The notes under the pieces were generated by a model that was given only the letters and a program-made list of their open reading frames with translations, was not told the DNA's origin and did no database searches. Of a DNA stretch of 64,000 nucleotides, positions 2,562 through 9,968 are shown piece by piece. The stretch is taken from the NCBI RefSeq assembly GCF_037039395.1, contig NZ_CP146242.1, forward strand, positions 372,001 to 436,000. Direction: 5' to 3'. This DNA is from Agrobacterium vitis (lineage in GTDB: Bacteria; Pseudomonadota; Alphaproteobacteria; Rhizobiales; Rhizobiaceae). The first letter of the stretch is position 1. Every line of letters starts with the position of its first letter. The translations under genes were made by a program, and so were the position numbers.

Positions 2562-4058
2562 ATGAACGATGTTGCGCGCAGGTTAAATCCTGCCCAGCCG
2601 GCAGAGCCCCATTACCGGGAAGCCCCGAACAATATCGAGGCAGAACAGGCTTTGCTTGGCGCCATTCTTGTCAATAACGATGCCTATTATCGTGTCTCGG
2701 ATTTTCTCAAACCCGCACATTTTCATGAGGGCCTGCATCGGAAGATCTACGAGGTCGCCTCCGACATTATCCGCATGGGCAAGACCGCCAATCCGGTGAC
2801 GATCAAGACCTTCCTGCCCTCCGACCAGATGATTGGCGATTTCACCATTGCCCGATATTTGGCCCGGCTGGCGTCTGAAGCCGTGTCGATCATCAATGCC
2901 GAGGACTATGGACGGGCGATCTACGATCTGGCTCTGCGACGCGCGCTGATCACCATCGGCGAAGACATGGTGAATATCGCCTTCGACGCACCGCTCGACA
3001 TGCCGCCGCAGGCGCAGATCGAAGATACCGAGCGGCGTTTGTTCGATCTCGCCGAGAACGGCCGCTATGACGGCGGGTTCCAGTCCTTCAACGATGCCGT
3101 GGCCCAGGCCGTCGATATGGCAGGCGCCGCGTTCGAGCGCGATGGTCATTTGTCCGGCATTTCCACCGGCATTCATTCACTCGACAGCAAGATGGGCGGT
3201 TTGCAGCGCTCCGACTTGATCGTCCTGGCTGGACGTCCCGGCATGGGTAAGACGTCGCTCGCCACCAATATCGCCTGGAACATCGCCGCATCCTACGAGC
3301 CGGAAGTGCAGCCGGACGGGTCGTTCAAAGCCAAGAATGGCGGCGTGGTCGGCTTCTATTCGCTCGAAATGTCGTCCGAACAACTCGCCACCCGTATCAT
3401 GTCCGAGCAGACCGAAGTGTCCTCCTCGAAAATCCGCCGTGGCGATATTACCGAACAGGATTTCGAAAAGCTGGTCGGCTTTTCCCAGACCATGCAGAAG
3501 GTACCGCTGTTCATCGACCAGACAGGTGGTATTTCCATCGCCCAGCTTTCTGCCCGTGCCCGCCGCCTGAAGCGCCAGCGTGGCCTCGATTGTCTTGTCG
3601 TGGACTATATTCAGCTGATGACCGGCTCGGGCAAGTCAGGGGAAAACCGCGTCCAGGAAATCACCCAGATCACCACCGGCCTCAAAGCGCTCGGCAAGGA
3701 GCTGAACGTGCCAATCGTCGCGCTGTCGCAGCTGTCGCGTCAGGTGGAAAGCCGCGACGACAAGCGTCCTCAGCTCTCCGACCTTCGCGAATCAGGCTCG
3801 ATCGAGCAGGACGCCGACGTGGTGATGTTCGTGTTCCGCGAGGAATATTATGTGCAGAACCTCGAACCCCGCGACCAGGGCGACCCAAAATATCCCGAAT
3901 GGGAAGCCCAGATGGAAAAAGTACGCGGCACGGCGGACGTGATCATCGCCAAGCAACGTCACGGACCGACCGGCACCGTCAAACTGGCCTTCCAGGCGCA
4001 GTTTACCCGCTTTGCTGATCTCGCCGATCCGAGCTTCACGCCTTACGAGGAAACCTGA
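2562..4058 (+). CDS. dnaB: replicative DNA helicase DnaB
   Basis: A 498-residue hexameric replication-fork helicase. The N-terminal DnaB domain (EAEQALLGAILVNN, about residues 25-130) is followed by the RecA-like ATPase domain. Walker A is GRPGMGKTS near residue 224, Walker B is CLVVDYIQLM, and SQLSRQVESR, DLRESGSIEQDAD and IIAKQRHGPTG are the later conserved blocks. The length is normal. A 253-base spacer containing the rplI terminator precedes it, so it probably has its own promoter. In other Rhizobiaceae alr usually follows directly; here about 4.7 kb of accessory DNA intervenes. Confidence 0.97.
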   Translation: MNDVARRLNPAQPAEPHYREAPNNIEAEQALLGAILVNNDAYYRVSDFLKPAHFHEGLHRKIYEVASDIIRMGKTANPVTIKTFLPSDQMIGDFTIARYLARLASEAVSIINAEDYGRAIYDLALRRALITIGEDMVNIAFDAPLDMPPQAQIEDTERRLFDLAENGRYDGGFQSFNDAVAQAVDMAGAAFERDGHLSGISTGIHSLDSKMGGLQRSDLIVLAGRPGMGKTSLATNIAWNIAASYEPEVQPDGSFKAKNGGVVGFYSLEMSSEQLATRIMSEQTEVSSSKIRRGDITEQDFEKLVGFSQTMQKVPLFIDQTGGISIAQLSARARRLKRQRGLDCLVVDYIQLMTGSGKSGENRVQEITQITTGLKALGKELNVPIVALSQLSRQVESRDDKRPQLSDLRESGSIEQDADVVMFVFREEYYVQNLEPRDQGDPKYPEWEAQMEKVRGTADVIIAKQRHGPTGTVKLAFQAQFTRFADLADPSFTPYEET

Positions 4059-6471: not shown

Positions 6472-7353
6472 TTATCCCCGGCGAAATTGCGCCGGGGTCA
6501 TTCCCGTCCGCGCCTTGAAATTGCGGGTAAAATGCGCCTGATCGGCAAAGCCGCAGGCAAAGGCAACGTCGGCAGGCGCAGCATCTTTCACCAGCATATG
6601 TTCGGCCTCACGAATGCGCCGGAATGTCAGATAGGCATGCGGCGTGATGTGATAGGTGGCGCGAAAACTGCGGATGAGATGCGCTCGGCTACAGCCAACA
6701 AGGTCAGCTATGTGTTCCAGGCCAATGTCCTCAGCGAAATAGGCATCAAGATAGTCCCGCACCCGGCTCATGGCCTTATCAGGGACCTTGCCCGCGCGCG
6801 CAAAGCCAGCTTTCTGGCCAACAGACCCATGGCAGACCTTCCCATGACGGGCGAAGAGAGCGGCAAGAACCTCCAACATCCCCTCCTCCGCTTCCAAGGC
6901 GTCTCTCGCGTCCTCCATCCGCCGGTGCATCCGGTTAAAAACAAGCGCAAGCGCGGGATCGCTGACCATCTGCTGCGGGAATGATGGCGTGCCGCTGGAA
7001 GGTCGTTCACCTATGTCCTCCAGCAGTTCCCGCAGAATGGCGACCGACGGATAGATCATCCGGTATCGGTAAACCCCGCCCGCCGAACCGCCATCATGGA
7101 TCTCCTCCGGATTGATCAGATAGAGATCGCCCGGCCCGCACATCCGACGGCAGCCACGGATGGTGGCAATTTTCTGCCCGGTCTCCATGGCGCCAATACC
7201 GAAATGCTCATGGGCATGCGGGGAAAACCGGTGAGTGATGAAGGTCGCACTCATGCAATCCATGCCGCCAAACCGGGCATCCCGCCAGAAGCGGGTCTGC
7301 TCGCGGATGGGCGCTGACGCAGGGCTGGTGGAAACCGGTGAAAGCATGTTCAT
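6472..7353 (-). CDS. AraC-family transcriptional regulator
   Basis: A 293-residue regulator with an N-terminal cupin-like AraC ligand-binding domain (FSPHAHEHFGIGAMETG, GPGDLYLINPEEIHDG, about residues 40-110). The C-terminal pair of HTH motifs (DIGLEHIADLVGCSRAHLIRSF and PADVAFACGFADQAHFTRNF, about residues 200-290) ends with TGMTPAQFRRG. It converges on the ABC transporter operon, which is its plausible target, though this is inference. Its ATG (revcomp of 7351-7353) sits only about 12 bases from the end of an insertion sequence, so the native promoter and ribosome-binding region appear to have been displaced. No good Shine-Dalgarno remains. Confidence 0.88.
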   Translation of the reverse strand: MNMLSPVSTSPASAPIREQTRFWRDARFGGMDCMSATFITHRFSPHAHEHFGIGAMETGQKIATIRGCRRMCGPGDLYLINPEEIHDGGSAGGVYRYRMIYPSVAILRELLEDIGERPSSGTPSFPQQMVSDPALALVFNRMHRRMEDARDALEAEEGMLEVLAALFARHGKVCHGSVGQKAGFARAGKVPDKAMSRVRDYLDAYFAEDIGLEHIADLVGCSRAHLIRSFRATYHITPHAYLTFRRIREAEHMLVKDAAPADVAFACGFADQAHFTRNFKARTGMTPAQFRRG

Positions 7354-7364
7354 CGCCAGACATA

Positions 7365-7377
7365 TGTGGACACCCCC
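7365..7377 (+). repeat. left inverted repeat of the IS1111-group element
   Basis: TGTGGACACCCCC, exactly complementary to 8706-8718. It lies within about 12 bases of the AraC start codon. Confidence 0.9.
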
Positions 7378-7620
7378 TCGGTCAAGCCTTTCTTCTGATC
7401 TTTTTGAACCCGGCTGGCTGCTCGCATATGTCCGGCCTCTCTGATGATCGGCCGAACGGCCGCGGGCCTTGATGAAATCCGCGGATCATGGTCCCAATCA
7501 AAAAAGCGCATTCTGCAGATGCAGTCTCGCGAACGGGTTGTCCTGATCCCCGGCGGAACCGGTATTCATCACGATCGTCTGGCAGGCCCTCCGAACTCGG
7601 TGACGCTGGTGCGTCGGTTT
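7378..7620 (-). ncRNA. predicted bridge RNA / seekRNA region of the IS1111-group element
   Basis: This 243-base stretch lies downstream of the transposase stop and inside the left inverted repeat and has no plausible gene. In IS1111-group elements the structured guide RNA (bridge RNA or seekRNA) that directs target choice is encoded at this position; in IS110-group elements it lies upstream of the transposase. It contains short palindromic stems (for example GGCCGAACGGCC near 7449) and two segments (7425-7432, 7442-7448) matching the DNA that flanks this copy. Exact RNA ends and structure cannot be determined by eye. Confidence 0.55.
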
Positions 7621-8649
7621 CTATGCGATGGCGTTTGTGTATACCGTCTGCCGAGTCATCACGGCCCATGCGATCCGCGCCATCTTGTTCGCCAGCGCCA
7701 CGGTCGTCAGGCGCGGGGGCTTCGTTAACAACAATTTCCTGACCCACTCGATGAGCGGCCCGTGCATCTTATGCCTGACATGCCTGAGGACGGCTGTCGC
7801 GCCGACGATCAGCAGCGTTCGCAGATATCGGTTCCCGGCCTTCGTGATCCTGCCGAGGCGCTCTTTTCCTCCAGACGAATTCGATCGTGGCGTCAGCCCG
7901 AGCCATGCGGCAAATTCTCGCCCCGACCTGAAGACTGACGCATCAGGCACCGTCGCCGCCAGTGCTGTGGCAGTGATGACGCCGACGCCCGGGATCGTCG
8001 CAAGCCTGCGGCCTGCTTCGCTCGTTCGTTGCCATTCGCGTATCTTGGCTTCAAGTGTCCTGACCTCGGCGGTCAGGGAGTCGATTTGCCTGGCCAAGGA
8101 TACGACAATGTCAGTCACGAGCGGCGGAACGTCCAGCTCTGTCGGCTCGTGTGCGAGCACCCGCTCGACGAGCTCTGCCGTTCTTTCGATCCCGACCGGC
8201 GCCACGATGCCGATCTCGGTGAGATGGCCTCGTAAGGCGTTCACCAGCATGGTCCTCTGCCGGATGAGGAGAGCACGCGACTTGTGCACCATCAGGATCG
8301 ACTGCTGCGACGCGGTTTTGATTGGAACGAACCGCATGGTCGGCCGGGTCACAGCCTCGCAGATCGCCTCGGCATCCACCATGTCGTTCTTCCCCCGCTT
8401 CACGTACGGCTTCACATAAGCCGGCGCCATCAGCTTGACCTCATGGCCCATGCCTGTCAGTTCGCGAGCCCAGTGATGCGCGGAGCCGCACGCCTCCATG
8501 CCGATCAGACTCGGCTCCAGCTTGGCAAAGAATGCAAGAAGGTGTGTGCGCCGGAGTTTCTGAGCGATCACGACACGACTGCTGTCATCAATGCCGTGAA
8601 CCTGGAAGACATTCTTTGCAAGGTCGATTCCGATTGTCAGCCTGGACAT
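7621..8649 (-). CDS. IS110-family (IS1111 group) transposase
   Basis: A 342-residue transposase/recombinase. The N-terminal RuvC-like DEDD domain has candidate acidic residues D9 (GIDLAKN), E52 (GMEACGS), D89 and D92 (KNDMVDAEA). A coiled middle segment (about residues 185-210) is followed by the C-terminal Tnp_20 domain with IPGVGVITATAL and GLTPRSNSSGGKERLG. Ser258/Ser259 in that motif is the candidate nucleophile. No frameshift or internal stop is seen, so the element may be active. RNA-guided recombination is known for the family; activity here is inferred. Confidence 0.93.
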   Translation of the reverse strand: MSRLTIGIDLAKNVFQVHGIDDSSRVVIAQKLRRTHLLAFFAKLEPSLIGMEACGSAHHWARELTGMGHEVKLMAPAYVKPYVKRGKNDMVDAEAICEAVTRPTMRFVPIKTASQQSILMVHKSRALLIRQRTMLVNALRGHLTEIGIVAPVGIERTAELVERVLAHEPTELDVPPLVTDIVVSLARQIDSLTAEVRTLEAKIREWQRTSEAGRRLATIPGVGVITATALAATVPDASVFRSGREFAAWLGLTPRSNSSGGKERLGRITKAGNRYLRTLLIVGATAVLRHVRHKMHGPLIEWVRKLLLTKPPRLTTVALANKMARIAWAVMTRQTVYTNAIA

Positions 8650-8705
8650 CCCGTTTCCTTTCCAACGTTTGATTGGTCCCTGCCGATATTCTCGGCGGTA
8701 GTGGT

Positions 8706-8718
8706 GGGGGTGTCCACA
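8706..8718 (+). repeat. right inverted repeat of the IS1111-group element
   Basis: GGGGGTGTCCACA, exact reverse complement of 7365-7377. It lies 56 bases upstream of the transposase start. Confidence 0.9.
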
Positions 8719-8804
8719 TCATCAATAACACCAGCCCGGCATTTCAGTCTTGAAGAAAAGTGATAGGGTCCGGCTACCATTATTGTTCGCAAAAAGCTGT
8801 TTCC

Positions 8805-9968
8805 ATGACCCTCCCTGCCTTTTCCATCCCCCCCTCCGATGAATTCCTGACCGCTCCGCTGCGCGTGACAATCGACCTGCAAGCACTGGCCGACAATTGG
8901 CGCGAGATGGCGCAGCGATCCGGCAAGGCGCGGGCGGGTGCCGTGGTGAAGGCCGATGGCTACGGAATCGGCATCGAGGATGCCGGTCAGACGCTTTACA
9001 ATGCGGGTGCGCGGGATTTTTTCGTGGCGCTGCCATCGGAAGGCGCGACCTTGCGGACCTATGCGCCGGACGCCCGGATTTTCGTACTGTCAGGGATCTG
9101 GGAAGGAATGGAACCGCTGTTTTTCGAGCATGACCTGGTGCCGGTGATTGCCAGTGAGGAACAGTTGGCGTTCTGGATGCGGGCCGTGGCCGAGCATGGT
9201 GATCATCCATGCGCCCTGCATGTCGATACCGGTTTCAACCGGCTGGGCCTCAGCATGGACGACGCAATGTTCCTGGCGACTGACGTTTCGCGCCCGGCCA
9301 GCTTTTCACCGGTGCTGATTTTGAGCCATCTCGCCTGCGCAGACGATCCATCCTCGCCGATGAACCAGCAGCAATTGCAGGCTTTTCATCAGGTTAGCGC
9401 GGCTTTCGAGGGAATTGAATCAAGCCTTTCAGCCTCTGCTGGAACTTTACTCGGCCCCGGTTACCACTTCGACCTCACCCGCCCCGGCATCGCGCTTTAC
9501 GGCGGCGAAGCGGTCATGGGCCTGCCCAACCCGATGCGCCCAGTGGTCAAGGCCGAGGCGCGCATTCTCCAGATCCGCCAGGCCAGGAACGGGGAAACCG
9601 TCAGCTACGGCGCCACCTGCAAGTTGGCGAGAGAAAGCCGTCTGGCCATTGCCTCCGTCGGCTATGCCGATGGCTACCTGCGCAATCTCTCAGGCCACGG
9701 CACGGCATTGCGCGATACCGGATCGCCGGGGGCCTATGGCTCTATCGCCGGATACAAGGTGCCGGTGGTTGGCCGCATCACCATGGACATGACGATCTTC
9801 GACGTCAGTGACGTGCCGGAAAAAGCGATTGCCGCTGGCGACTATATCGAACTGTTCGGGCCAAACATGCCCATCGATGACGTCGCCCGGGCGGCAGGCA
9901 CGATCGGCTATGAAATGCTGACCGGCCTCGGCCTGCGCTATGAGCGGCATTATCTGGAGGCCGAATAG
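8805..9968 (+). CDS. alr: alanine racemase
   Basis: A 387-residue PLP enzyme that interconverts L- and D-alanine for peptidoglycan. The PLP lysine is K49 in AVVKADGYG and the second catalytic base is Y268 in VSYGATC. HVDTGFNRLGLS and the C-terminal VGRITMDMTIFDVSD block also match the family. The ATG at 8805 (MTLPAFS) is preferred over an in-frame start at 8760, which would add 15 residues reaching toward the IS end. dnaB-alr-radA is a usual rhizobial order; the accessory DNA and IS now separate dnaB from alr, leaving about 86 bases of its own upstream region. Confidence 0.95.
   Translation: MTLPAFSIPPSDEFLTAPLRVTIDLQALADNWREMAQRSGKARAGAVVKADGYGIGIEDAGQTLYNAGARDFFVALPSEGATLRTYAPDARIFVLSGIWEGMEPLFFEHDLVPVIASEEQLAFWMRAVAEHGDHPCALHVDTGFNRLGLSMDDAMFLATDVSRPASFSPVLILSHLACADDPSSPMNQQQLQAFHQVSAAFEGIESSLSASAGTLLGPGYHFDLTRPGIALYGGEAVMGLPNPMRPVVKAEARILQIRQARNGETVSYGATCKLARESRLAIASVGYADGYLRNLSGHGTALRDTGSPGAYGSIAGYKVPVVGRITMDMTIFDVSDVPEKAIAAGDYIELFGPNMPIDDVARAAGTIGYEMLTGLGLRYERHYLEAE

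Follow-up and report, generated by a model that had tools for sequence, protein, structure and literature searches.

The 243-nt non-coding region on the 3' side of an IS1111-type transposase gene in Agrobacterium vitis very probably encodes a bridge RNA (seekRNA) for the adjacent recombinase, guiding it by four pairings. It lies in a stretch of 64,000 nucleotides, which we refer to as the window. A preliminary description, made from the letters of the window, had proposed that the element encodes its own guide RNA. We found support for this in a covarying structure and in guides that change together with the flanks and with the right end of the element, a correspondence that, as far as sequence comparison goes, is evolutionary evidence for a bridge RNA or seekRNA.

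The element is on the minus strand, so that its left end is at the high coordinate. Its parts are as follows.

7363 to 8724, minus strand: IS1111-group element, 1362 bp counting one TG core (from empty versus filled sites)
8723 to 8724, minus strand: left copy of the TG core (from empty-site comparison)
8706 to 8718, minus strand: left subterminal inverted repeat, on the 5' side of the transposase
7621 to 8649, minus strand: DEDD recombinase (transposase), 342 amino acids, ATG start
7365 to 7377, minus strand: right subterminal inverted repeat, on the 3' side of the transposase
7361 to 7362, minus strand: right copy of the TG core (from empty-site comparison)

The inverted repeats were perfect over 13 bp, and adding positions 7364 and 8719 extended them to 14 bp with 100% complementarity; in the IS1111 group such subterminal repeats are 7-17 bp long, with short extensions outside them. 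Here the termini (7363 and 8724, including one core copy) also lie outside the repeats, with TGATGA beyond the left repeat, and TA followed by the core TG beyond the right. Downstream of the transposase there are 243 nt of non-coding DNA (7378-7620); on the other side, the left repeat and the ATG are 56 nt apart.

An empty site corresponding to the window copy was found in a same-genus genome (locus L123) and reads, in the orientation of the element, GTTAT-TG-TCTGGCGATG, the filled site being GTTAT-TG-ATGA...TA-TG-TCTGGCGATG. For another copy in the same genome (L001), empty sites were found in two other same-genus genomes (L216 and L217), and the junctions share TG alone. Because these empty sites (three sequences, from two loci) have only TG in common with both junctions, the core is the 2-bp TG and the element is 1362 bp long. 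For these two of the eight copies, insertion was at a specific target without duplication beyond the core; searches with the flanks of L007 and L004 yielded nothing in seven sister genomes. The window copy is situated between a gene for an AraC-type regulator (start at 7353, minus strand) and an alanine-racemase-like gene on the plus strand (window 7353-7363 and 8724-8805), both names being a reading of the translations. Because the regulator's start codon is only some 10 bp away, the element may cut the regulator and the racemase-like gene off from their promoters.

The transposase matched the Pfam families DEDD_Tnp_IS110 (PF01548; 2.8e-14) and Transposase_20 (PF02371; 1.1e-26), and the NCBIfam model NF033542, "IS110 family RNA-guided transposase", with 348.5 bits (cut-off 140). 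Its combination of a DEDD domain with Transposase_20 in 342 residues agrees with the IS1111 group, whose transposases have about 330-350. When it was aligned with 11 relatives (51-80% identity), D9, E52, D89, D92, S259 and G260 were invariant in all 12 proteins; we take D9, E52, D89 and D92 to be the DEDD residues. Among solved structures, there were weak sequence matches to ISCro4 (3.3e-09) and IS621 (8wt6; 3.1e-08). The motif GL-P----S(t)G is given in the sections of PMC11187229 drawn on here. Thus, judged from its sequence, the element fits the IS1111 group by every feature examined, i.e., transposase, subterminal inverted repeats (sTIRs) and downstream non-coding region. The preliminary description had reported one minus-strand transposase, perfect 13-bp inverted repeats at both ends and 243 non-coding bases 3' of the transposase, and had assigned the element to the IS1111 group. 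All of this was confirmed, the repeats proving one base longer, and the objection that the transposase might belong to a group without an RNA at this location did not hold.

Comparison with other copies, suggested in the same description, revealed eight full copies at 100% identity, ends and RNA included, in the element's own genome (6.04 Mb in five contigs), together with four partial matches at 71%. Because an identical 1354-bp unit occurs at eight different places, the element is not a chance observation. The flanks of the eight copies differ except for a TGATGA that precedes the left repeat and a TATG that follows the right one (both in 8/8) and a common right-hand motif, which is exactly CTCGCGA in five copies (L001, L002, L004, L005 and L008) and altered in L003, L006 (the window copy) and L007. 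Across 394 genomes of the same family, full-length matches came only from the own genome among the matches listed, the others being partial and at most 81% identical; five other same-genus genomes that were drawn contained no match to the element. A protein identical to the transposase is present in Agrobacterium vitis NCPPB 3554 and on an A. vitis pAt plasmid, and on the Ti plasmid pTiS4 (L157) there is a copy with 98% identity into which an IS630 element is inserted. At the level of sequence, the identical copies point to recent spread. No title on this element was found in the literature among the matches listed.

For comparative analysis, we used the best 80 of 403 loci with related transposases plus the eight own copies. 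In 72 of these 88 loci we could identify repeats together with enough flanking sequence (11 had none by our rule, and five were truncated). Because the rule required the left repeat to lie 45-95 nt ahead of the matched frame and the right repeat 225-360 nt past it, the layout common to the 72 is in part built in. Three loci with a wrong repeat (L024, L070 and L075) were dropped before counting, and the remaining 69 elements had 58 distinct non-coding regions between them. Two alignments, A2 and A3, were made from 44 of 63 sequences (four of the 44 from plasmids), leaving out near-duplicates and three sequences with insertions (L058, L068 and L092). The predicted RNA and the parts of its target loop are listed below.

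7395 to 7576, minus strand: predicted bridge RNA/seekRNA, the span of the covariance-model match (132.8 bits)
7535 to 7550, minus strand: 5' arm of the stem closing the target loop (helices 2 and 3)
7524 to 7533, minus strand: predicted right target guide TTCGCGAGAC, RNA nt 88-97, pairing with the top strand of the right target
7508 to 7522, minus strand: covarying hairpin within the target loop (GCAT/ATGC; helix 4)
7497 to 7507, minus strand: predicted left target guide GCTTTTTTGAT, RNA nt 114-124, for the bottom strand of the left target plus the core
7483 to 7495, minus strand: 3' arm of the stem closing the target loop (helices 2 and 3)

The non-coding region has a conserved secondary structure. 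RNAalifold on alignment A2 predicted 19 pairs, 13 of them with compensatory changes. The final structure retained 17 of the RNAalifold pairs and added two helices, giving 26 pairs in six helices; for the outer helix and the inner donor hairpin, we scanned possible offsets and took the one with the best pairing. On the 44 sequences, 93.6% of 1133 cells were paired, compared with 23.3-44.5% in slid controls, a figure that is inflated because the same alignment had served to select the structure. Two-sided changes occurred at 19 of the 26 pairs and in 155 cells, whereas shuffles, which do not keep the relatedness of the sequences, averaged 13.0 and 46.1, and none of 500 reached either value. The weightiest structural evidence comes from the target stem and its hairpin, where up to 20 of the 44 sequences have two-sided changes at a single pair; the GGCC helix is almost invariant and contributes little. 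Folded as a single sequence, the window RNA had a z score of -3.19, and 0 of 200 shuffles were as low. The possibility, also raised in the preliminary description, that related copies share no conserved RNA structure here can therefore be set aside.

A search of the whole window against Rfam at gathering scores gave no match. The covariance-model search that had been proposed was carried out with a model built in this analysis (R1), which matched the loci of 38 of 41 relatives outside its training set (missing L050, L070 and L085), several of the 41 being near-identical to training rows (e.g., L013-L015). By contrast, R1 had no matches at E values up to 10 in 30 control loci of the own genome. 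In the window there was one strong match, 7395-7576 on the minus strand, with two others at chance level; the RNA ends given here are the ends of that match, and the window sequence was itself in the training set. Across the 6.04-Mb genome, R1 had 12 matches at E ≤ 0.001, eight in this element and four in a second one, and each stands behind an IS110/IS1111-type transposase. Sixteen Transposase_20 matches were found in the genome, 12 in these two elements and four (C1:412141, C5:65790, C3:15927 and C2:17829) without such an RNA; the latter may rely on a different type of RNA, or they may be remnants. The related locus L086 has two strong R1 matches, 3078-3249 (plus) and 3258-3438 (minus), facing each other 8 nt apart, and L025, L034 and L075 likewise have two strong matches each.

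Within the RNA, the target guide pair is TTCGCGAGAC and GCTTTTTTG, and the order is TTCGCGAGAC, the hairpin, then GCTTTTTTGAT. These segments pair with both strands of the target, the top-strand match coming first. As far as PMC11187229 is drawn on here, IS1111 seekRNAs likewise have the top-strand match 5' of the bottom-strand match.

Insertion sites were scored at 16 positions predicted by the RNA, against a background of the 8,546 TG positions in the window. The sites of L001 to L008 scored 12, 13, 8, 10, 12, 11, 11 and 13, and the numbers of background TG sites scoring as well were 2, 0, 480, 36, 2, 11, 11 and 0, respectively. Copies elsewhere scored 13 (pAt), 13 (pTiS4), 13 (L013), 12 (L014) and 9 (L015, from A. 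vitis; 139 of 8,546). By these background counts most of the sites are special, and those of L003 and L015 are not. Counting target-like sites across the own genome with up to three mismatches was uninformative, because the 150 places found were fewer than the 235 in a reversed control. The window copy, L006, sits at an imperfect target (11 of 16 positions match the guides), as it might if the RNA were real but this copy, or the whole lineage, were now inactive, leaving a trace of past guiding. We consider this unlikely, given the eight identical copies, in which ends and RNA are preserved, and the conservation of the candidate catalytic residues.

Conserved structure by itself does not prove guiding. 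The protein alone might read the target, the downstream structure being an RNA of other use (3' UTR, terminator or regulator) and its similarity to the target incidental. We therefore asked how the guides agree with the flanks across elements, bearing in mind that related sequences are not independent and that neither shuffles nor swaps fully allow for relatedness. When whole non-coding regions of the 58 elements were compared with flanks, the mean was 12.19 for own and 10.76 for swapped flanks (0 of 5,000 permutations). With cluster representatives at 90, 80 and 70% identity (n = 42, 29 and 19), 0, 0 and 461 of 20,000 permutations, respectively, did as well, i.e., this unrestricted test weakens with the 19 representatives below 70% identity. 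With the guide columns fixed, 44 elements gave 6.18 matched versus 3.77 swapped for the right guide, and 6.32 versus 3.76 for the left guide with core (both 0 of 20,000). Agreement persisted in 19 elements with distinct right guides, a number of classes that depends on the cut-off set in this analysis (right, 5.84 versus 3.55; left with core, 5.47 versus 3.62; 0 of 20,000). The left guide without the core gave 4.68 versus 3.42 in the 44 elements (0 of 20,000) and 3.89 versus 3.28 in the 19 representatives (44 of 20,000). In L066, the right flank was matched exactly over 12 nt.

Reading of the target by protein alone is made very improbable by these results, and an incidental likeness to the target equally so, since guide letters in fixed loops change with the flanks while the surrounding stems stay. 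Thus, L019, whose transposase is 80% identical, has CGCGCAAC in place of this element's CGCGAGAC, and is inserted at TTGCGCGA, whereas copies such as L008 are at TCTCGCGA. The published deletion and reprogramming of other IS1111 elements, as given in the portion of PMC11187229 used here, also argue against it. In its favour are modest flank fits in some close relatives, with right-guide scores of 5 or 6 on their own flanks in L020 and L153-L155; further weak fits were seen in L036 (3 and 4) and in L057 and L059 (3 on the right). That flanks and RNA agree through homologous sites inherited together, rather than through choice by the RNA, is similarly far-fetched: some close relatives do share a type of site near plasmid DUF736 genes, but the eight own copies are at eight different places, the agreement extends across the 19 right-guide classes, and empty sites exist in sister genomes.

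A DUF736 gene was found near 8 of 98 loci, counting the query's own locus, and one is annotated in L153. Copies of the element and relatives near such genes are L002, L008, L013, L019 and L153-L157; L154, L155 and L157 have an ArdC-type gene nearby as well. Slight variants of the site GGCTTTCTTG-(N)-CTCGCGAGGAATG are shared by L002, L019 and L154-L157.

The spacing between TG and the CTCGCGA-like motif varied among the identical copies, being 0 nt in L001, 1 nt in L002-L006 and 2 nt in L008 (L007 was ambiguous), and both empty sites of L001 keep the 0-nt register. It is conceivable, if rather doubtful, that the guide RNA accepts right targets at differing distances from the core. If true, this would imply a flexible, bulge-tolerant target loop, and a rule looser than a rigid guide register.

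On the donor side, two guides and a candidate promoter element were located.

7469 to 7475, minus strand: proposed left-end donor guide TCATCAA, RNA nt 146-152, pairing with TGATGA of the left end
7425 to 7431, minus strand: proposed right-end donor guide ACATATG, RNA nt 190-196, same letters as the right end
7380 to 7385, minus strand: TTGACC, candidate -35, just inside the right repeat

Both donor ends have a proposed pairing partner; the right-end guide co-varies with its end, and the left-end guide (CATCA) agrees with its own. In the latter, CAT is invariant in the 44 sequences, and the CATC that immediately precedes the GGCC stem is complementary to GATG in the left end; because it is nearly invariant, this guide is consistent rather than proven. 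An alternative left-end guide, ATCATCA at RNA nt 173-179, was dropped in favour of TCATCAA, as it is not kept in relatives. The right-end guide agreed with its own right end at 5.51 of 6 positions, compared with 4.26 for swapped ends (0 of 20,000; 57 of the 58 distinct elements, L092 being skipped and the mis-anchored rows L059 and L078 kept), an agreement to which shared descent adds because guide and end lie in the same element. CATATG, CACATG, TACATG and CAGAGA were each present together in guide and right end, and in seven elements the comparison of guide and end set CACAAG against CACAGG. In many IS1111 orthologues, potential donor-binding nucleotides are in a multiloop, according to the part of Durrant et al. 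(PMC11208160) drawn on here, and the position of the donor guides in this RNA fits that location.

Of the 58 distinct regions, 56 contained TTG within the 16 nt that immediately precede the right repeat, as against 107 of 777 other 16-nt stretches. The predicted circle junction reads ACATA-TG-ATGATGTGG, placing TTGACC 15 bp before TATGAT. TTGACC-15-TATGAT is a candidate promoter that would be completed only in the excised circle. For ISEc11, a promoter formed at the circle junction is described in the relevant part of PMC11187229.

The second IS1111-type element of the genome (L196-L199, at C2:14559, C3:107903, C5:64267 and C5:67144), represented by four RNA matches, has the same RNA scaffold with other guides, GCCGGACG and GTGAGCG. 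Three of its copies could be read at both ends, L199 not being resolved on both sides. In these three (L196-L198), a held-out case that was in none of the guide tests, the guide places hold TTCTGCCGGACGG and GTGAGCG, the left flank reads GTGAG-CG, and the right flank is either CG-TCCGGC or CG-TCCGGT. Because the flanks carry those letters, CGTCCGGC and GTGAGCG are matched. From the letters shared, the core of this element is probably CG.

We propose the following mechanism for the bridge RNA. The region would be transcribed and the RNA would form a complex with the recombinase, one stem-loop displaying both target guides. TTCGCGAGAC would pair with the top strand to the right of the core, and GCTTTTTTG with the bottom strand to the left. 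TCATCA and ACATATG, flanking the GGCC stem, would pair with the left and right ends, which would be joined in an excised circle. The recombinase would align circle and target via these four short pairings and catalyse strand exchange at the common TG dinucleotide. The element would thus land at sites like GCTTTTTTG(N)CTCGCGA, leaving only TG on both sides.

With 19 right-guide classes, known insertion sites and one conserved scaffold, the element family represents a natural experiment, and two differently programmed elements coexist in one genome. It lends evolutionary support to the guide rules published for a small number of IS1111 elements and broadens them to include the donor side. It also supplies further programmable recombinases for testing; no new kind of system emerges from it. 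Residues 182-256 of the transposase weakly resemble the TIGR-Tas endonuclease model NF052498, but the score (20.7 bits) is far below the cut-off of 100, and, unlike in TIGR-Tas, no tandem guide array was seen in the non-coding region. Within the parts of the reports used here, the element resembles the seekRNA elements ISEc11, ISKpn4, ISPa11 and ISPst6 (Siddiquee et al., 2024; PMC11187229) in its DEDD transposase of about 340 residues, subterminal repeats, 3' non-coding region and top-before-bottom guide order. It differs from them in host, in sequence and in its target (GCTTTTTTG-N-CTCGCGA), in that its RNA is predicted, and in that donor guides are proposed here too. It also resembles the IS110/IS621 bridge RNA system, as covered by the portions cited (Durrant et al., 2024; PMC11208160; structures, PMC11208158), in having two target and two donor guides and a dinucleotide core, whereas, unlike in IS621, the RNA is on the 3' rather than the 5' side and there are long sTIRs. 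This kind of mechanism was already published in 2024, and the present element is a well-supported further example of it.
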